From positions 1 through 45,873 of IMG/VR virus record IMGVR_UViG_3300042291_001523: 45,873 nucleotides of DNA; one strand, written 5' to 3'. The notes beneath the pieces were generated by a model. The model worked only from the letters and a program-made list of their open reading frames with translations. It searched no databases and was not told where the DNA came from. The translations under genes were made by a program, and so were the position numbers. This document shows, one piece after another, positions 2,787-34,459 of this stretch (the first letter of the stretch is position 1; every line of letters begins with the position of its first letter). Origin of the DNA: a virus.

Positions 2787-3131
2787 ATGAGTAGACACGA
2801 AGAGCTTCAACAGGTGTGGCACAACGATGGCCACAAGATTGAACTAAGAATCAACAAAGCTGAGCTAGAAGTTCTTTCCACGATTTGTCCCCACGAAGAC
2901 AGTTCTCCATGTAAAAACATGGCTGGTGATTGTGTGGTGACCTGGTTTATAGACCGTTTTGGGATGGAGTGCAATGGAGGCATATGTCCTCCTGCTGAGT
3001 TCATTGAAATATCATGGACAACTGTAGGGGATATCAACAATTTTGATTCCTGCCAAGTTTGGTTTATGCCATTGACTGATGACATCTTTAGCGCGTGGAT
3101 GATTTCTAACTCAATGGAAGAACTGGAATAG
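2787..3131 (+). CDS. Unknown 114-aa protein
   Basis: Soluble protein with six cysteines, including CPHEDSSPC and CNGGICPP, which could bind metal or form disulfides. The sequence CAAATTTATCCG stands just upstream (2763-2774). The 3' end overlaps the convergent gene at 3106 by 26 bases. I do not recognise the family. Confidence 0.6.
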   Translation: MSRHEELQQVWHNDGHKIELRINKAELEVLSTICPHEDSSPCKNMAGDCVVTWFIDRFGMECNGGICPPAEFIEISWTTVGDINNFDSCQVWFMPLTDDIFSAWMISNSMEELE

Positions 3132-3630
3132 GTTTATTCTTTTTTCTTTTTGTTGAGGCAATATTCTTGACTCTGTTTCTCTCTATGAATCTTGCATAGA
3201 TTTCATCAAGTACCTTCTCTTCAGCATCTAAGACTTTGTCGTCCATTGGGAGACCTAGGTTAGAAGAAGCAGAAAGTCGTTCCTGAGCAAGTATTGTGAA
3301 CTTCGCGCCTATCTCTTGCCTCATCTTGATTCTGTGCTCAGAGACGGCCTCCACCATGGCTCTCGTGCCATCTGGGGTAATTGTGTATAAACCGATTCTT
3401 TTAAAGTTTTCGTCTTTCAATGAACCAATTCGTTCGATTAATTTCTTAGTTAGAAGCTCGGTAATAGTTCTCCCAGAAAGTTCTATGTTTCTTTCATTGG
3501 GTCTAAAAAGGCCTGCCAGGCAGTCCGCCAAAGAGCGAGACGTAAATCCTTTAGCCCCTTTCATCTTCGCGTACGAGAGTGCTTTGTATTGCCTCGATGA
3601 ATAACTAAGTAGAACTTTTTCATGACTCAT
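3106..3630 (-). CDS. Winged-helix-like DNA-binding protein, 174 aa
   Basis: Residues 10-80 read like a winged helix: a helix with YKALSYAKMKGAKGFTSRSLADCL, then RTITELLTKKLIERIGS followed by a strand-like FKRIGLYTITPDG. The C-terminal half is helical and ends in a basic RKKNKPIP tail. It follows another winged-helix gene on the same strand. Likely a transcriptional regulator; the target is unknown. Confidence 0.6.
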   Translation of the reverse strand: MSHEKVLLSYSSRQYKALSYAKMKGAKGFTSRSLADCLAGLFRPNERNIELSGRTITELLTKKLIERIGSLKDENFKRIGLYTITPDGTRAMVEAVSEHRIKMRQEIGAKFTILAQERLSASSNLGLPMDDKVLDAEEKVLDEIYARFIERNRVKNIASTKRKKNKPIPVLPLS

Positions 3631-3645
3631 TAGCTGAGTATCGTA

Positions 3646-4083
3646 TTAGAAAACTTCTTCTTCTGCAACTTCAGGACGCGTGCTGTCTTTATTTATTTCC
3701 GTGATAGCAGACAATAAGTTACGTATATCAGGCTGGTTTGTTATTAATTTTTTATTACAACGATAGACATTTTGTCGATTGACTTTTGTCTTTGTAATTA
3801 GCCCTGCATTTATAAGGCTTTTAAGAGTTTTGTCAATCATGGTTTCACTTAAATCAAGATAAACCGAAATTGCCCTTATCGTCATCTCCTGGTCTTGCAT
3901 GATTGAAATCAATACTCTTCCCGAAGTAGACAAGAGACTGACCTCGTGTTCCTGGTGATAGCGGAGTATTTTCTTGGTGTCAAGAGCTTGCATCACTTTT
4001 TCAATAGCAACGTCGCTTTCTTCCCCTTTGGACAGCGCGTCTTCAAGCGCCTTTTTTATTTCATTGATTTTCTGAGACCTCAT
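3646..4083 (-). CDS. Winged-helix regulator (MarR/ArsR-like), 145 aa
   Basis: I use the internal ATG (MRSQKINEI) because the 20 residues upstream are Arg/Tyr-rich and look non-coding. Residues 55-100 have the helix-turn-helix-wing order of MarR/ArsR proteins (TSGRVLISIMQ, MTIRAISVYLDLSETMIDKTLKSLINAGLI, then a wing). The region between this gene and 4203 on the plus strand must hold divergent promoters. Confidence 0.6.
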   Translation of the reverse strand: MRSQKINEIKKALEDALSKGEESDVAIEKVMQALDTKKILRYHQEHEVSLLSTSGRVLISIMQDQEMTIRAISVYLDLSETMIDKTLKSLINAGLITKTKVNRQNVYRCNKKLITNQPDIRNLLSAITEINKDSTRPEVAEEEVF

Positions 4084-5932: not shown

Positions 5933-6565
5933 ATGACAACCGTAGTAGGAATACAAGGAGAAGGATACGCCGTTATTGCGGCAGACACACGTATTACCTC
6001 CTTTTCCGATGACGGACCGGCTTATCACATGACTAGCCTGGGTTCAGGGACTTCAAAGATAGCAACAAACGGCAAATACTTAATCGGTACAGCCGGAGAC
6101 CTAAGAGCAATTAATCTCTTAACTCACGCATTCGCTCCTCCTATAGTGCCGGCAGGTACAAAAGGCAAGAAGCTCGACCAGTTTATTACAGTTAAATTTA
6201 TACCAGCAATGAGAGCCTGCTTTGACCTTCATGGCTATTCTCCACCAGAGAACAAAGAGAACAAGGAACACATAGCAGAACAGGGTTCAACTCTCCTGCT
6301 AGTAGTCAATGCAACTATCTACGTTATAGACAGTGACTATTCCTGGCTCAATGACTCAACAGGACACTATGCGGTAGGCAGTGGTTCGGAATACGCCCTT
6401 GGAGCGATAAGCGCCCTAACTGGCGGAAAGAAACTATCCTCCACACAGGCAAAAAGCGTATGCCTGAAGGCTCTGGGAATCTCGGCAAGACTAGACCCCC
6501 ATACCGGTTCACCGTTTCATACATACGTCCAGACAACGGAACCTAAATCGCCGGCCTCAAAATGA
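5933..6565 (+). CDS. Proteasome beta-subunit/HslV-like Ntn hydrolase, 210 aa
   Basis: The protein begins Met-Thr-Thr, so removal of Met would expose the Thr1 nucleophile with no propeptide, as in HslV. Numbering from that Thr, Asp17 (AADTR) and a Lys in SKI at position 41 match the catalytic Asp17 and Lys33, with an insertion of about eight residues between them. The GTAGD turn, the GSGSEYALGA stretch (Ser129 region) and DPHTG (Asp166 region) are also present. The gene appears intact, so an active threonine protease is likely. It overlaps the next membrane gene by ATGA. No alpha subunit or ATPase for it is seen nearby. Confidence 0.8.
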   Translation: MTTVVGIQGEGYAVIAADTRITSFSDDGPAYHMTSLGSGTSKIATNGKYLIGTAGDLRAINLLTHAFAPPIVPAGTKGKKLDQFITVKFIPAMRACFDLHGYSPPENKENKEHIAEQGSTLLLVVNATIYVIDSDYSWLNDSTGHYAVGSGSEYALGAISALTGGKKLSSTQAKSVCLKALGISARLDPHTGSPFHTYVQTTEPKSPASK

Positions 6566-7413: not shown

Positions 7414-7566
7414 TTACCCGTGCTTCTTCAGGTGAGCAGCAATTGCGTCTTTGATTACCTTTGAGTTGGATACTTCTTGTTTTCCTGCAAGCTTAGCAAT
7501 CCCATCCAGTGTCTCTTGATTAAGCCTGAAGGTTATGCGTGGGTATTCTGTTTCTGTTTTTGTCAT
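7414..7566 (-). CDS. Ribbon-helix-helix DNA-binding protein, 50 aa
   Basis: The sequence has the CopG/Arc pattern: a short beta-strand (PRITFRL), a helix (QETLDGIAKLAGK) and a second helix (NSKVIKDAIAAHLKKH). Such proteins dimerise and bind DNA with the strand. The start codon lies seven bases after a TATACT -10 box, so the mRNA is probably leaderless. Confidence 0.65.
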   Translation of the reverse strand: MTKTETEYPRITFRLNQETLDGIAKLAGKQEVSNSKVIKDAIAAHLKKHG

Positions 7567-10330: not shown

Positions 10331-10705
10331 CTATTCGCCCCACCATGGTTGGCTGCGGTACTTGCTCGCGATGAACTTGCCGAACTCGTCCCTACGTGGG
10401 GGAGTGATGTTCTCTTTATGCTTGGGGATTCTCGAGATAATGTCTTTGGTCTCTTTATCGAGTCTGTCCCTGTGGTAATTCGTAGGATGTTCGCGCCGGC
10501 TTTTTAGCTGTTGACTATTAATGTATTCCTGAAATTCTGCAGCCAGCTCGTCCTGCAGCATTGTCTCAGTATTTTTTGGATTAATGAATTTGTTGTATTT
10601 GTAACGTTTAGTCCAGATGCCGGCGCGGTGCACCAGGGAGTGGATTGTAAGCAGAACTGTCGCGACGAACGTTATGGAGATGATTGTGGAAATTGCTGTT
10701 TTCAT
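10331..10705 (-). CDS. Membrane-anchored unknown protein, 124 aa
   Basis: An N-terminal hydrophobic helix (residues 4-24) is followed by a highly charged, helical cytoplasmic region rich in Lys, Arg and Glu. An AAAAGG ribosome site precedes the start. The gene overlaps the upstream membrane gene by ATGA. Confidence 0.6.
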   Translation of the reverse strand: MKTAISTIISITFVATVLLTIHSLVHRAGIWTKRYKYNKFINPKNTETMLQDELAAEFQEYINSQQLKSRREHPTNYHRDRLDKETKDIISRIPKHKENITPPRRDEFGKFIASKYRSQPWWGE

Positions 10706-10902
10706 TTAGGTAGCCTTTTTGTGTATTTTTTGATTTGCCATTTCCGGAAGTTGTACCCCGTACGCCATAACGAAACTCTTTCGACAACTAAGCCGCGCAA
10801 ATTATCATAAATAATTGCAATTGTTCCGTCGTTGACACGTGGTCTAACCCAGATAAAGAACCAGAGGACCAGGGATAGGTAAAGAAAAAAGAAAAAACTC
10901 AT
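10702..10902 (-). CDS. Small membrane protein, 66 aa
   Basis: One strongly hydrophobic Phe-rich N-terminal helix (SFFFFLYLSLVLWFFIWV) precedes a basic tail (RKWQIKKYTKRLPK). It overlaps both neighbours by ATGA, so it is part of a tightly packed operon. Function unknown. Confidence 0.55.
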   Translation of the reverse strand: MSFFFFLYLSLVLWFFIWVRPRVNDGTIAIIYDNLRGLVVERVSLWRTGYNFRKWQIKKYTKRLPK

Positions 10903-11057
10903 TCGCCGGCCTCGAGCCCGTCGAGGTAAGAATCGCGCATTCCATCCATATATTCCTGATAAAGGTAATTTATTTCCGCCGCATCGAGCAGATGGCTATC
11001 GCGCTGATTTTCAAGAAAAGCGTGATACTCGGCAGCGGCTTCTTCGCGACCCGTCAT
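10899..11057 (-). CDS. Small acidic protein, 52 aa
   Basis: Starts in a TAATG overlap with the upstream gene and ends in an ATGA overlap with the downstream gene. The sequence is acidic and helical with many Tyr and Met (YLYQEYMDGMRDSYLDGLEAGE). Recognised from its overlaps and protein-like composition. Confidence 0.5.
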   Translation of the reverse strand: MTGREEAAAEYHAFLENQRDSHLLDAAEINYLYQEYMDGMRDSYLDGLEAGE

Positions 11058-11320
11058 TACTTCCCAACTTCCAGCAGCTCTTCGTGCTCATTATTTAAAC
11101 TTTCATACATCCGGGAAGACGACAGCAGCGCCATCATTAAAGCTGCGCGCGCCTGGATATCGTCCAGTCCTTCCATAACTTCATTTAATTGAAGAATTCT
11201 TAATCTAATAGCATCTAAAGCGTCAGCTCTATCTTCAGGAGGTCTTGTTTCTCCTGAATCTTCAAAAAAAGCAGTAATTCGTATCTGCTTCATAATTTCT
11301 TCTTGTGTTTGGTCTTCCAT
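11057..11320 (-). CDS. Unknown acidic helical protein, 87 aa
   Basis: All-helical, Glu/Leu-rich protein (RADALDAIRLRILQLNEVMEGLDDIQARAALMMALL pattern) without recognisable domain. It is translationally coupled to the downstream 52-aa gene by TAATG. Confidence 0.55.
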   Translation of the reverse strand: MEDQTQEEIMKQIRITAFFEDSGETRPPEDRADALDAIRLRILQLNEVMEGLDDIQARAALMMALLSSSRMYESLNNEHEELLEVGK

Positions 11321-13027: not shown

Positions 13028-13193
13028 ACTCGCACTTCTGTCCATCACAGCTGCCGAATTGTCGGCAAAACATTGAATAATTGATGCAGTCTGGGTCACG
13101 TGAGTCTTCAGCTTCTGATTGGCTGTTGCGCTCTTTACGTTTTCCACGAGACTTGCCTAGCTTGTAAGCAACTAAATTAGTGACTAATCCCAT
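13014..13193 (-). CDS. Small cysteine-rich protein, 59 aa
   Basis: Reads MGLVTNLVAYKLGKSRGKRK, a charged middle, then four Cys in CINYSMFCRQFGSCDGQKC, likely a metal site or disulfide knot. The end overlaps the start of the 12803-13027 gene by 14 bases. Found from the sequence between genes; a GGTGGCGGATAAGG stretch lies upstream. Confidence 0.5.
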   Translation of the reverse strand: MGLVTNLVAYKLGKSRGKRKERNSQSEAEDSRDPDCINYSMFCRQFGSCDGQKCEYEHE

Positions 13194-13278
13194 GGCGCAA
13201 CCTTATCCGCCACCGTTGCTTTTGTCAACCTATATATTAATCATTCCCGTAAATGAAAAATGTAATTCTTTCTGCATG

Positions 13279-13292
13279 CGAACATACGTTCG
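13279..13292 (+). promoter_or_regulatory. SOS box (LexA-type) upstream of HA-HTH gene
   Basis: CGAACATACGTTCG has the GAAC-N4-GTTC form of Bacillus and actinobacterial LexA sites. It ends 16 bases before the start codon at 13309, where it would overlap the promoter spacer. Confidence 0.6.
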
Positions 13293-13308: not shown

Positions 13309-13686
13309 ATGGACAACGGTACAAAATTCAGTATTTATAAGGCAGCTCTTGAGCTGTACATTTCCGAAAATGGAGATTCTAAAATTTCATCAAGTTATGT
13401 TGATAAAAATCAAGAAAAAGAAATCTCACTGGGAGCTTGGGTTGGTTACATCCGGCAGAGATATCGTAAAAATCAACTTTCTGCATCACGTGTTTCAGTT
13501 CTGGAGCAAATTCCGGGTTGGTCATGGGGTCCTTTTCAACCAGGACCTCCAACCGATACTGAAAGAAATGAATCAATTCGTCAAATGAGAATTGAGGGAT
13601 TATCCCTTAGGCAGATTGCTGATGAATTTGATTTGAGCCGCCAGAGGGTTCATCAGATAGTTAAAAAAATGGAATTATTTAATTAG
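13309..13686 (+). CDS. Helicase-associated domain plus HTH protein, 125 aa
   Basis: I use the ATG giving MDNGTKFSIY, since the upstream frame is Pro/Leu-rich and crosses the SOS box. Residues 8-70 have the layout of the helicase-associated (HA) domain: a Tyr-containing helix, SSYVDKN, then LGAWVGYIRQRYRK and LEQIPGWSWGP. Residues 88-122 are a sigma-70 region 4-like helix-turn-helix (MRIEGLSLRQIADEFDLSRQRVHQIV). The domain pair suggests a DNA-binding regulator, possibly induced by DNA damage. Confidence 0.65.
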   Translation: MDNGTKFSIYKAALELYISENGDSKISSSYVDKNQEKEISLGAWVGYIRQRYRKNQLSASRVSVLEQIPGWSWGPFQPGPPTDTERNESIRQMRIEGLSLRQIADEFDLSRQRVHQIVKKMELFN

Positions 13687-14368: not shown

Positions 14369-14518
14369 AATAAAAATCCATTTTTTGTAGTAGTGAATGT
14401 TGTTTGGTTTCCCCCTGCCACCACCCCTCACGCAGAATCAAAGGAGTATGAAACTTCCACGCTCGGGGCAGTGGTGGTACATAGAGTAGATAACTCCATG
14501 CACCAGTTTCCTTTCAGA

Positions 14519-14565: not shown

Positions 14566-16098
14566 CTACTCCCCTTTCTCGGGGAGAGGTACGCCCATGT
14601 GCTTGTAGTAGGTCTGTTGGAACATGTAAGGATACACGCTGTGAGCCTTGCCATTCACTTTCAGGTTGCGTAACTGTTGTATCGCTTCCTCAATGTGTGG
14701 AACAACAATGAAGTTGTGTTGGCGAGCGTAGGTAATGCACTGCATTGAGAGCAGGTCAGAGAATCCGTCATGCGCTCCACAGACACCACCATCTGTCACC
14801 CATACAAGAGGTGTGTTCTTGTATTGGCGATTCTTTACGCCCCACTCAATCGCAGGAAAGTCCACGCCGTTACCGTGTCCGTAGTCAATGTATTCCACAT
14901 TCTCAACCATTTTGCCTTTGTCAGCAACGACCCACATGTTTGGCAAGTCTTTCCTTCCTCGGTCTGAATAGATAGCCACTGTTGCGCCTTGTGCGTTCTC
15001 AATGATTTCTGCAATCTGTTCAGTAGTGAACGACATAGAGCCACTTGCGTCAATGATTACCATTCCACCACTGCCACGAATGGTCTTGTCAAAGACACGC
15101 TTCGCAGGGTCAGTCATGTAACGGTGCAATCGGCGTGGTCTGCGCCCCATGTTCGTAGCAATGCGCTTCTTGCCCATTGAGCCGTAGTGGTGGCGTGGCA
15201 TTGGCTCACGACTAACAATCAGTTCAGCCCAACCGTGTGCGCCACCAGCAGGAGCAGGGGAGACTTTGGCGTGTGGGTTTCCGTCTCTGTCACCGTCTTT
15301 GGATTCCTCGTACTCGGCGTGATGTTCTTCGTCACCTTCGCCTTTGGACTTATCTACTCCCTTTGCTTCGCCTGCCTTACCCTTTGGTGGTGGTGGGAAC
15401 GAGGCAAGCCTGTCCACCCATTCTGCAAGACGCTCGGTGTGAGTGAATCCGTATGGAGCAATCCCTTCATAAGTGTCGGTGCTTGCGAGTGTGCGTTCTT
15501 TGTGCGCTTTACGCATTTCTTTCACTGCTCGCTTGCCGATAGCAACAAGTGATTCACCCCACTCACGATTATGCCTGCGTATTCCGTTCAGGAATGTCTT
15601 GTGACCAGCAGTGTTCGCAGTAGCGATACACATAGCAACTGCGCCTGCCCAATCGTTTGACTTCGCAAGGTGTTCGCCTGTTGCCAGTTCGCTTCCGTCA
15701 GACAGAAACTTCTTGACATCAAATCCACGAGTTTCGCATAAGTAGTTCACTCGTAGTTCCTCTACAACAATCATCGCTGTCTCGGAAGCAACACTGCGCT
15801 CTACCCATTGGGTCATCTGTTCAGGTGTGGGGGATACTTTTGCATGCATCATTTCATGCCCACGAACAACACGCTCCATGTCACCGTCCGTAGAAGGTGC
15901 GAACATGACACGGTTGGCTAGGTCTGTGCTTGGCTCTCCACGAACAGGCAGACAATCTCGGACTGTCCAGCGTTCATGTTCCATGTCTTTACGAGAGAGC
16001 ATGTTGGGTTCAGGACGGTGCGCCCCCCTTTCAGAGTTATCTACTCTACTGGGGAACGCCTTGCCTGTACCTGTATTGGTGGCAGGGGTGTAAGCCAT
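14566..16098 (-). CDS. Metallopeptidase-like plus von Willebrand A protein, 510 aa
   Basis: An N-terminal HEMMH motif at 81-85 (HExxH, zinc-metallopeptidase type), with acidic residues in VVEELRVNY near 111-119 as a possible third ligand. A charged linker (residues 235-280) leads to a VWA domain with the metal-binding motif D350-A-S-G-S354 and a later TDGG (about 436). The order recalls DUF2201-type metallopeptidase-VWA proteins. It directly follows the AAA+ gene, as in MoxR/VWA pairs that remodel target proteins. The TAG stop lies in a family A copy. Confidence 0.75.
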   Translation of the reverse strand: MAYTPATNTGTGKAFPSRVDNSERGAHRPEPNMLSRKDMEHERWTVRDCLPVRGEPSTDLANRVMFAPSTDGDMERVVRGHEMMHAKVSPTPEQMTQWVERSVASETAMIVVEELRVNYLCETRGFDVKKFLSDGSELATGEHLAKSNDWAGAVAMCIATANTAGHKTFLNGIRRHNREWGESLVAIGKRAVKEMRKAHKERTLASTDTYEGIAPYGFTHTERLAEWVDRLASFPPPPKGKAGEAKGVDKSKGEGDEEHHAEYEESKDGDRDGNPHAKVSPAPAGGAHGWAELIVSREPMPRHHYGSMGKKRIATNMGRRPRRLHRYMTDPAKRVFDKTIRGSGGMVIIDASGSMSFTTEQIAEIIENAQGATVAIYSDRGRKDLPNMWVVADKGKMVENVEYIDYGHGNGVDFPAIEWGVKNRQYKNTPLVWVTDGGVCGAHDGFSDLLSMQCITYARQHNFIVVPHIEEAIQQLRNLKVNGKAHSVYPYMFQQTYYKHMGVPLPEKGE

Positions 16099-16100
16099 TG

Positions 16101-16832
16101 CTATTTCACTCCGTCCACTGCAAGAGCGTCAAGAATCTGCTTGGCACGAGTACCGAAAGTGAGTTGGCATGCTCGTTCCATACCGACTGCCTTACGCAGT
16201 TTGTCAAGTGCCATGAAGGCTCGCAATGAGATACGAGCCTCACCACCGTCAGCCATACGAACGGCGTAACCACGCAAGTCAGGAGACAAGCGTAGAAGTG
16301 CGTTGGGGTGTGGCTCGTTGATACGAACACGAATCGGGAAACGGTCAGCGAGTGCTGTTGGCAGTTCGCTCATGTTCTCAATGTTCGTGGTCATCACGGC
16401 AGAAAAGCCTTCTAATGGGCGTACCAGTTCACCACTTTCAGGGTGTTGGAATGTGGCAGATTCAGGTGAATCCAACATGGCGAGAAGTGTTGCGAAAACA
16501 TCGCCACCAGCCTTATCTACTTCGTCCACGATGAGACGACCACCTTTTGTGCCGTTGCCTTTCCATGCTTTGAGAGCAGAGCCGTCAAGCCATTGGAAGC
16601 CACCGTTACTGCTTGGCATGAAGCCACCAGTTACGTCCATGTTTGTCATGTCCTCGGTGCAGACTAGGCGATGTGCGCCAGCCTCAATGTCTCCGAACGA
16701 AAGACCAGCGTAGGTCTTGCCTGTTCCAGCAGGTCCGAACAGAATGATTCTGTCTATTCCTGAGTCAAGTGCGTCCTTGACATCTTTCCAGCACTGTGGC
16801 AGTGCCTCTTGGGTGGTTGTTACTGTATCCAT
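16101..16832 (-). CDS. MoxR-type AAA+ ATPase, 243 aa
   Basis: The ATG at 16832 has an AAAGGAG ribosome site; the longer frame upstream overlaps the promoter. Walker A is GPAGTGKT at 33-40 and Walker B is RLIVDEVDKA around 99-108 (Asp103, Glu104). A sensor-1-like TTNIENMSELP and arginine-containing ALADRFPIRVRI follow. MoxR ATPases work with VWA partners as chaperones, and such a partner is the next gene (gap of two bases). Confidence 0.8.
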   Translation of the reverse strand: MDTVTTTQEALPQCWKDVKDALDSGIDRIILFGPAGTGKTYAGLSFGDIEAGAHRLVCTEDMTNMDVTGGFMPSSNGGFQWLDGSALKAWKGNGTKGGRLIVDEVDKAGGDVFATLLAMLDSPESATFQHPESGELVRPLEGFSAVMTTNIENMSELPTALADRFPIRVRINEPHPNALLRLSPDLRGYAVRMADGGEARISLRAFMALDKLRKAVGMERACQLTFGTRAKQILDALAVDGVK

Positions 16833-18917: not shown

Positions 18918-19145
18918 TTATTTATTTCCTATGAGATTGTTCATGGACACGCCAAGTGCGTCACCTACAAGAAGTAGGGTCTCAACGCTTGGTGCGTAGC
19001 GTCCGTTCTCAACACGATTTACAGTTTTCCTATCCACGCCTGCACGATTAGCGAGTTCTAACTGTGACCAGCCCTTCTTGGTTCTGTGTGTTCGTACTGA
19101 TTCTGAAATGTTTTCCATAGATTGTGTGTTTTTTGTAGTTCCCAT
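18918..19145 (-). CDS. XRE/Cro-C1-type HTH regulator, 75 aa
   Basis: Residues 14-70 form a classical helix-turn-helix: SVRTHRTKKGWSQLELANRAGV, DRKTVNRVENGR, then SVETLLLVGDALGVSM. The protein is only the DNA-binding domain. It lies downstream of the Api92-like gene and a family A copy (19163). It is one of two HTH proteins inside the motif-rich region, so a candidate to bind family A or B; nothing in the sequence proves this. Confidence 0.8.
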   Translation of the reverse strand: MGTTKNTQSMENISESVRTHRTKKGWSQLELANRAGVDRKTVNRVENGRYAPSVETLLLVGDALGVSMNNLIGNK

Positions 19146-20857: not shown

Positions 20858-21463
20858 TCACGGCAACCAGTAGGTGGGTGCGCCCTTTGAGATGTGTGTC
20901 TCAACGAACGATACTGCCCATTCCCACACCGTGTCACGATGACCGTAGAGACCAGCGTCAATGGCACGAGATGTGCGATTGTCAAAATCCACGATGGTGG
21001 TGGTGTCTTTCTTACTCAGAACCTGAGCAACATCTTTCTCTGTCAAAGCGTCCTGCTTATCCACGATTGCTACTACTGCGTCAGACGAGTGCTTGACATC
21101 TGTCATCTCTGCTCGTAATGAGAGGTACGAGTTGCGAACCACTGCTACACGGAATGGCACTTGGTCAAAGTAGGTGGACTTGCCACCGAGTAGACCTGCG
21201 TCAATAACCACGAAATCGTAGCCCGTGATGTCCTGATTGCTCACCTTGTCAAACGGTGTGCCAATAATGGTGATACCACCGTATGTCTGTTCCTTTGATG
21301 ACGGAACACTTAGTCCGAGAATCAACATGTCATCGTTGTTCACTGATGTGTCAATGAGCAACACTTTCTCAGGATTGGTCTTTCCCAATGCCAATGCGAT
21401 TGAGCAGGCTGTGGTGCTTGTGCCGACCCCACCCTTTCGTGCGCTTACTTCTATTACTTTCAT
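20858..21463 (-). CDS. ParA/MinD-like ATPase with altered P-loop, 201 aa
   Basis: N-terminus MKVIEVSARKGGVGTSTT gives a deviant Walker A: the ParA signature Lys10 is kept but the P-loop Lys is replaced by Thr15, as in some MinD/CpaE-like proteins. LLIDTS (Asp38) and FVVIDAG match the switch regions. Start has the GAAAGGGG ribosome site. Possible roles are plasmid-like partitioning or positioning; no clear ParB follows, only small genes. Confidence 0.7.
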   Translation of the reverse strand: MKVIEVSARKGGVGTSTTACSIALALGKTNPEKVLLIDTSVNNDDMLILGLSVPSSKEQTYGGITIIGTPFDKVSNQDITGYDFVVIDAGLLGGKSTYFDQVPFRVAVVRNSYLSLRAEMTDVKHSSDAVVAIVDKQDALTEKDVAQVLSKKDTTTIVDFDNRTSRAIDAGLYGHRDTVWEWAVSFVETHISKGAPTYWLP

Positions 21464-23669: not shown

Positions 23670-23711
23670 AAGTTATCTACTCTCACTCGCCACAACGAGA
23701 GTAGATAACTT
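23670..23711. repeat. Perfect inverted pair of family A motifs
   Basis: 15-bp arms (AAGTTATCTACTCTC and complement) with a 12-base loop, downstream of the 23716 gene. Could act as terminator, as paired binding sites, or both. Confidence 0.75.
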
Positions 23712-26592: not shown

Positions 26593-26624
26593 AGCCCCGG
26601 CCGTTCGCCGACAATGCCGGGGCT
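26593..26624. terminator. Two-hairpin GC-rich element between inverted family B copies
   Basis: AGCCCCG pairs with CGGGGCT. The inverted B copies at 26548 and 26660 enclose it, giving a 120-bp symmetric element. Confidence 0.5.
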
Positions 26625-33169: not shown

Positions 33170-33301
33170 ATCACTCACAACTTCATCATGAAGAGAGAGT
33201 AGATAACTTCACAAGGAGCCCCGGCTTCGCCGACTAACGCCCTCGCTTCGCTTCGGTTGTTCTCGCTCTGAAAACGAGAGAACGGAGAGAGTAGATAACT
33301 T

Positions 33302-33330
33302 TTGAAAGTCTGTACTCCCCGTGGTACATT
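33302..33330 (+). promoter_or_regulatory. Family promoter, plus strand, best consensus match
   Basis: TTGAAA, 17-bp spacer beginning GTCTGTAC and ending GTGG, TACATT. A family A copy ends at the -35 box. Confidence 0.8.
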
Positions 33331-33358: not shown

Positions 33359-33700
33359 ATGTCGTCCGACATCACATTCATCAACAAGGTGCAGGAAGCA
33401 CTGGAAGCAGGGGTCATCATTGCTGATGGTCACACGCTTTTCGCACCTGAGTTTTACGAGCCGTTCTTCACGGCAACAGAACTCGGACACCTCATCCGTA
33501 AGCACGAATCTCACGGCTCGTGGAAATCCACCATCTTTGACGAGAACGGTGAAGTCATTCCTGAACTGGAAGCCATTTACAATCTCGACTTTTTGTACTG
33601 GCTCGCCAGCAAACTCGGAGTCACGAAGCACACCACTGCGATGGGTCGTGGTTCACAGGCTGAACAACTGAAAGGCTTCATCCGAGAAGCAATCGCATAA
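33359..33700 (+). CDS. Unknown protein, 113 aa
   Basis: Start MSSDITFINKVQEALEAG with GAAAGGGG upstream. Contains an alpha/beta mix (HTLFAPEFYEPFFTATELGHLI) and a C-terminal helical end. Followed by two tandem hairpins. No family recognised. Confidence 0.6.
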   Translation: MSSDITFINKVQEALEAGVIIADGHTLFAPEFYEPFFTATELGHLIRKHESHGSWKSTIFDENGEVIPELEAIYNLDFLYWLASKLGVTKHTTAMGRGSQAEQLKGFIREAIA

Positions 33701-33704
33701 GTTT

Positions 33705-33737
33705 GGTTCTCTCGGTTTCCTTCCCTCCGAGAGAACC
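33705..33737 (+). terminator. Hairpin downstream of 33359 gene
   Basis: GGTTCTCTCGG and its exact complement CCGAGAGAACC form an 11-bp stem with an 11-base loop, four bases after the stop codon. Confidence 0.65.
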
Positions 33738-33747
33738 CTCACGGGAA

Positions 33748-33784
33748 ACGCCCCACAAGAGTTATCTACTCTCTTGTGGGGCGT
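33748..33784 (+). terminator. Perfect terminator hairpin with family A motif as loop
   Basis: ACGCCCCACAAGAG and its exact complement form a 14-bp stem whose nine-base loop TTATCTACT, with bases of the stem, makes a family A motif. A TTCTCTTTTT tract follows on the plus strand. A clear intrinsic terminator. Confidence 0.8.
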
Positions 33785-33951
33785 TCTCTTTTTCTCAATC
33801 AAATGTGCTCACAGAAGTTATCTACTCTATTGGCGTGACGCAGGTGCACAGGTTCGCTTCGCAGTGCGCTCAATCCAGCGAGTGTGTGAAATCGGAAACT
33901 TATCTCTCACTCCCCCATCCTCAACTTTCCCCCTTCGGGTGAAAGCCCCGC

Positions 33952-34146: not shown

Positions 34147-34347
34147 TTAAAAAAGAGGAACATCCATGGTTTGCGGCCGGTCGTTGCAATGTATGTGCTT
34201 GTATTCGTGGAGCTCTTCGACTACCCGATTAATGGCCTTGCCGCCCGATTTAAGCCAAACAATAGCCTTGCGCTCAACGGTGTTATCTCCAGGACGAAGC
34301 GATAGGCCGCAGACGTAGCAGACAAAAAGAGGAGGCAATCCGGTCAT
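34147..34347 (-). CDS. Small zinc-binding protein, 66 aa
   Basis: CYVCG and a HIHC near the C-terminus suggest a zinc site, with VERKAIVWLKSGGKA between. The start MTGLPPLFVC has AAAGG nine bases upstream; a longer in-frame start at 34425 would run through a family A copy. Similar C-terminal HxHC proteins occur in actinophages. Confidence 0.5.
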   Translation of the reverse strand: MTGLPPLFVCYVCGLSLRPGDNTVERKAIVWLKSGGKAINRVVEELHEYKHIHCNDRPQTMDVPLF

Positions 34348-34459
34348 GTTGATGGACCTTTCATAGAGTAGATAAGGCATCCTAGCGCGAGGCCTAACTA
34401 AAATCTCAATAGTTTTGCCATTCACGAAGAAAGGTGACTAGGATGTCGGCATAGGAATT

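Follow-up and report, generated by a model that had tools for sequence, protein, structure and literature searches.

The closest described systems to the locus studied here are the operator/stoperator arrays of Cluster A phages (L5 and TipsytheTRex, with Rhodococcus Cluster CA and Gordonia A15). As described in the cited portions of the reports (PMC6550527, PMC9283540, PMC13313380, PMC5559632), Cluster A sites are asymmetric, 13–14 bp long, set in one orientation and located between genes or at gene ends; early promoters also carry sites, the words vary between phages, and repression was lost when stoperator sites were reversed. According to the cited part of its report (PMC10276819), the repressor of Streptomyces phage R4 acts on an early promoter as well as at many sites.

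The window analysed here, meaning the whole stretch of DNA, is a 45,873-bp IMG/VR virus record. At 33747–33785 it contains a hairpin that, like intrinsic (rho-independent) terminators, has a GC-rich stem and, 3′ of it, a T tract; unlike ordinary ones, it carries in its loop an operator-type repeat that recurs across the genome. In Neisseria and Haemophilus, uptake sequences are short repeats that occur downstream of genes in inverted pairs and serve as terminator arms. The repeat of the window shares the inverted pairs after genes with them, but belongs to a phage genome and differs in its orientation bias, promoter placement and class switch. The locus is probably an ordinary strong terminator whose loop holds one copy of an operator-type site, such sites being the putative targets of a phage-encoded DNA-binding protein. 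The array, rather than the loop position, is the real finding.

Terminator Hairpin and Its Transcription Unit

The hairpin lies in a gap that is convergent because the next gene runs leftward. The features of this unit are:

33287–33330 (+): motif GAGAGTAGATAACTT abutting the promoter TTGAAA-17-TACATT of gene 33359–33700
33359–33700 (+): 113-aa gene, predicted in this analysis, with no assigned function, ended by the terminator
33705–33737 (+): perfect 11-bp first hairpin, lacking a T tract, immediately 3′ of the stop codon
33747–33785 (+): perfect 15-bp hairpin with loop TTATCTACT, best read as the intrinsic terminator of the rightward unit
33762–33770 (+): motif copy making up the loop; AGTAGATAA on the minus strand, antisense to the preceding gene
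33786–33796 (+): T-rich tail CTCTTTTTCTC
33818–33826 (+): second motif copy in the convergent gap
34147–34347 (−): convergent leftward 66-aa gene, conserved in relatives

The earlier note had described a perfect 14-bp stem at 33748–33784 followed by a T-rich tract. Both were confirmed, the stem being one pair longer (15 bp, 33747–33785) and the loop exactly TTATCTACT. RNA folding of the hairpin gave −31.6 kcal/mol (z = −7.9), and 0 of 200 shuffles folded equally well. With its stable GC-rich stem, its T tract and its position downstream of a gene, the hairpin is best read as the intrinsic terminator of the rightward gene 33359–33700, and the terminator reading proposed earlier is well supported. 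It would stop rightward transcription and so end a one-gene unit in the convergent gap. The same hairpin was present in five related contigs; its stem was identical in the relatives seen, and covariation was absent.

In the relative G002 (L098, about 13088–13288), the same promoter and hairpin flank another ORF, so that two close relatives hold different genes in one promoter/terminator frame, a gene-cassette swap. Elsewhere in the window, GC-rich AGCCCCG...CGGGGCT hairpins recur in intergenic gaps, e.g., at 26593–26624, and are perhaps the commoner terminators.

Number, Orientation and Placement of Motif Copies

TTATCTACT occurred 68 times in the window, compared with 0.26 expected. The array comprises:

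11343–40791 (either strand): 68 exact motif copies (TTATCTACT/AGTAGATAA)
23670–23711 (unstranded): inverted motif pair after a leftward gene, with 15-bp arms and a 12-nt loop
21741/21782, 22614/22649, 24757/24789, 25919/25938 and 27033/27060: five further inverted pairs

The sequence logo, GAGAGTAGATAACT, describes an asymmetric word of ~14 bp. Exact site counts across the large uncultured phages ranged from 43 to 98; in the 156-kb relative G006, 96 of the 98 copies fell within 91.7–131.3 kb, a single 40-kb region set apart from the longest, tail-type genes. As in operator/stoperator systems, an asymmetric word of ~13 bp thus recurs in tens of copies over a non-structural region. The array extends over the early-type part of the genome of a large tailed actinophage. 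Of five metagenome-bin contigs, four carried an Actinomycetota or Ilumatobacteraceae label and one a Gammaproteobacteria label, too few for naming a host. A DNA search against isolated phages gave no match, and no description of this word or of such an array was found in the collection of open-access papers searched.

Orientation was counted for copies inside genes or between co-directional genes (59 of the 68 in the window). In 49 of them the coding strand carried AGTAGATAA (49:10, p = 1.4e-7), and the corresponding ratios were 68:17 in G006 (68/85), 52:15 in G008 (52/67) and 32:6 in G002. The predominant orientation relative to transcription, which is also a property of operator/stoperator arrays, therefore holds in four genomes. 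Coding sequence makes up 74% of the span, yet only 14 of the 68 copies were in genes and 54 were outside. As with operators and stoperators, the sites are chiefly intergenic or at gene ends, with others at early promoters; further copies are located at start codons.

A recurrent promoter element was preceded by the motif in 18 of the 68 copies, and 11 of 15 promoter units recognized by eye had 8–10 nt from the motif end to the AGTCTG/AGCCTG element. This spacing, together with promoter elements that stay constant while the motif switches, favors an activator site, at which a phage factor just upstream of the −35 would recruit RNA polymerase to early/middle promoters on the model of MotA/class II-like activation. 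We nevertheless consider such a role unlikely: the spacing is more variable in the other motif class and within the window extends to 20 nt or beyond, most copies lie away from promoters, and those at start codons, within genes and after stop codons are left unexplained.

The orientation bias and the start-codon copies would also suit an RNA-level signal (processing, antitermination or translation control) in 5′ or 3′ untranslated regions, and inverted pairs could give RNA hairpins. However, the copies at promoters precede the inferred start, those in convergent gaps and inverted pairs present complementary RNA, and an Rfam scan returned no match; a signal of this kind appears very unlikely. 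An extremely low probability is assigned to a role of the copies as sites of recombination, partition or replication, such as cassette borders or parS-like sites, which would need neither orientation nor placement at promoters and start codons. The gene swapped in G002 between identical promoter and terminator and the ParA-like protein encoded within the array speak for such sites, but that protein was found in 5 of 7 genomes, with no hit in the motif-bearing G011 and G016.

Under the preferred operator/stoperator-type explanation, a phage-encoded sequence-specific DNA-binding protein would occupy the copies. By analogy with operator/stoperator systems, the protein bound at promoter copies would block initiation, and at the remaining copies it would hinder elongating RNA polymerase. 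The copy at 33762, oriented as for leftward genes, would block leftward read-through. All six inverted pairs lie in gaps 3′ of leftward genes, and their opposite-orientation copies count against this explanation, because a purely one-directional stop would not need them. Also against it, a search of 9 records for Phage_integrase (PF00589) gave a match in none, so that there is no direct sign of lysogeny.

Motif Copies in Hairpin Loops

The earlier note had taken the loop word for a regulatory motif with a protein partner, acting from the loop either by tuning termination or as RNA. The first part is supported by the 68 copies, their orientation bias, their proximity to promoters and the concerted switch described below. 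The loop as a mechanism was not supported, because motif copies were not enriched in hairpin loops. At a score of at least 8.3, copies lay inside hairpins in 4/68 cases in the window, 2/98 in G006 and 1/78 in G008, while 4.35%, 4.6% and 5.4% of random intergenic positions, respectively, lay inside a comparable hairpin (4,000 draws per genome). No preference of the motif for hairpin loops over random intergenic positions was found in these three genomes. Since the motif occurs in hairpins no more often than such positions do, the loop copy is best regarded as a member of a dense array that landed in a terminator.

Perfect hairpins (stem of at least 9, loop of 3–14) were surveyed in the motif region, which spans 13,984–39,368 in the window. 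The motif was in the loop of 1 of 8 in the window, 1 of 6 in G002, 0 of 9 in G006, 1 of 15 in G008, 1 of 5 in G011, 1 of 9 in G015 and 0 of 9 in G016. Apart from 33747–33785, just one of the eight window hairpins had a 15-bp stem, and it was a motif pair. A general rule placing the motif in loops was rejected, as the random-position control gave similar rates. Two other hairpins contain the motif:

14475–14505 (+): second motif-centred hairpin, without a T tract, kept in G006, G008 and G011
40133–40186 (+): imperfect hairpin between convergent genes, with the motif partly in the 5′ arm

In relatives, stem bases of the 14475–14505 hairpin have changed and the motif has switched in G008 and G011; the hairpin persists across four lineages with one double-compensated pair. 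Because of this persistence a role for some motif hairpins is possible. This conservation, the perfect 11-bp stem that encloses the lineage's own motif in G015, and the exact fit of the motif to the loop of a perfect stem kept in five related contigs are the points in favor of a loop copy that is functional as such, termination being tuned either by a regulator on the loop DNA or by a protein that binds the RNA loop. Such a function is nonetheless improbable. The rate of motif hairpins does not exceed that of random intergenic positions, the stem around 33762 is unchanged in the relatives seen and so gives no covariation support, and the 14475–14505 hairpin has no T tract. The motif at 33762 is, moreover, antisense to the gene ended there, and the 18 copies upstream of a promoter element would not be transcribed from it.

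The hairpin at 40133–40186, cited earlier as a similar case, proved to be a real hairpin between convergent genes, but an imperfect one with the motif in the 5′ arm plus loop. It was rejected as a twin of 33747–33785 because the motif is in the arm. Its arms are maintained across relatives while the motif switches class; a fold alignment of five sequences, two of them partial, contained 0 double-compensated pairs.

Concerted Switch of the Word between Syntenic Relatives

The lineages carry different words, namely GAGTAGATAAGTC in G006, GTGTAGGTAAGTC in G008, G010 and G011, AGGTAGATAAGTC in G015 and CTAATAGATAACT in G016, and other contigs carry still further ones. G006 and G008 have a mean aligned identity of 69.4%. 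From G006 to G008, 81 of the 98 TTATCTACT sites could be aligned; 46 had switched to TTACCTACA (39 exactly, 7 containing it in a gapped alignment), 3 were unswitched and 32 matched neither word, the 32 counting against the operator/stoperator-type explanation. In the reverse direction, 65 of 78 sites aligned (41 exact, 4 gapped, 20 other). Of 309 control 9-base windows taken 40–55 nt from the sites, 40 were identical and 1 carried the two-position change of the switch. For the sites of the window itself, 44 of 68 aligned with G008 (24 exact, 5 gapped, 1 unswitched, 14 other) and 43 of 68 with G006, where 34 were identical.

Single-change intermediates numbered 0–4 per genome. Within the SNF2 helicase gene, the switch of the in-gene copy coincided with the amino-acid changes E619S and D621G. 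As between related operator/stoperator phages, the word thus differs in a graded manner while the sites are kept. Judged from the alignments, a concerted switch of this kind is difficult to account for unless a trans-acting reader changed its specificity, and it therefore implies a putative co-evolving trans-acting factor.

One TTATCTACT copy, at 34365 in G006 near a divergent late-type gene pair, stays TTATCTACT in the C-class genome G008. A second repeat, TTGACGGTGGTGGAAGAG, is unchanged across phages with differing main motifs; exact ACGGTGGTGGAA copies occur six times in the window and are also present in G002, G006, G008, G011, G015 and G016.

Candidate Readers of the Word

The following proteins of the window were considered:

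3106–3630 (−): protein B, candidate specificity protein, a hypervariable 174-aa winged helix with a MarR-like fold
3646–4083 (−): protein A, a conserved winged helix (TrmB/MarR-like), directly upstream of B
18918–19145 (−): 75-aa XRE-type HTH protein
13309–13686 (+): HA-domain + HTH protein

Protein B beside the conserved A is the best candidate for the binder of the motif, though not a proven one. In a scan of 80 loci encoding A for an ORF of at least 90 aa behind it, such an ORF started 12–15 nt behind A at 50 loci; none was found by simple search at 24, and 6 were doubtful. B is far less conserved than A (33% vs. 73% identity between the window and G006, 58% vs. 88% between G006 and G008). 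Its hypervariability alone is no demonstration of binding. B is about as divergent within the C class (60%, G008–G011) as between the T and C classes (58%, G006–G008), which counts against it as the reader. Some phages with A and B had no obvious motif in the stretch examined, a further point against the preferred explanation.

The AlphaFold model of B has a helix-helix-helix-strand-strand core with a mean pLDDT of 71.4; in 10-residue blocks, values were 81–92 over residues 11–100, except for 64 at residues 41–50. Foldseek matched the model to MarR-family regulators (best E 2.5e-4, TM mostly 0.3–0.5), and a profile of B gave no significant match against PDB chain sequences. It is conceivable, though doubtful, that a heterodimer reads the word, with A on the nearly constant GATAA half and B on the changing half. 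If true, this would account for MarR-like proteins reading a site that is asymmetric; B would then act as an evolving immunity-type specificity determinant making 70–100 operators switch together, and terminators such as 33747–33785 would be among the targets of A and B.

The XRE, HA-HTH and RHH proteins are poor candidates because their contact residues do not vary. The recognition helix of the XRE protein is identical between the T and C classes, the DNA-contacting segments of the HA-HTH protein are constant across motif classes, and the RHH/Arc-like proteins at 7414, 8229 and 8575 showed no change tracking motif class. The G006 protein at 10404–11090 had the top T/C residue split and was rejected because it lacks a family match and lies among tail-size genes. 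The HA-HTH protein, which is as constant as the second repeat TTGACGGTGGTGGAAGAG, may be the reader of that repeat.

Other Features of the Window

Several further features were noted:

5933–6565 (+): 210-aa protein with an N-terminal proteasome-subunit match
14566–16832 (−): AAA_5 ATPase, 26% identical to cyanophage CobS, adjoining a 510-aa phrog_33218 protein, with which it possibly forms a CobS/CobT-like pair
20858–21463 (−): ParA-like protein inside the array, divergent between relatives, its gene differing in place and orientation in G006/G008
about 42320–43613: low-complexity stretch with long repetitive ORFs and no motif copies
44762–45727 (+): protein with transglycosylase-like (resuscitation-promoting-factor type) and lysozyme-like domains

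Comparison with Repressor-Stoperator Systems and Implications

The array resembles Cluster A operator/stoperator arrays in having many asymmetric sites between genes or at gene ends, in one orientation and also at early promoters, with a consensus that is similar but not identical between related phages, as far as the cited portions of the Cluster A reports describe these features. It differs in the number of sites, as the 43–98 exact copies are 2–4 times more than the about 20–26 given there, and in its inverted pairs at gene ends and its unrelated word. The phages here are of the 150-kb class with no integrase match, and their candidate regulator has no detected kinship and no sequence match to solved repressors among PDB chain sequences. 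Membership of the Cluster A family is not claimed, because the repressor is only a candidate, 9 of 9 records lack a Phage_integrase match, and the sites are more numerous. The R4 repressor-stoperator system likewise combines an early-promoter site with many sites; in the cited part of the R4 report, the sites are fewer and the phages carry serine integrases.

Stoperator control has so far been described for few actinophage groups, with about 20–26 sites. The present in silico data point to a similar logic in large uncultured phages, with 43–98 exact sites and several lineage-specific words. Their syntenic genomes would form a natural series for following how a regulator and the dozens of sites it binds alter their specificity jointly, which is a difficult question in regulatory evolution. 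The closely matching T- and C-class site maps with different words make this question of co-change directly testable.
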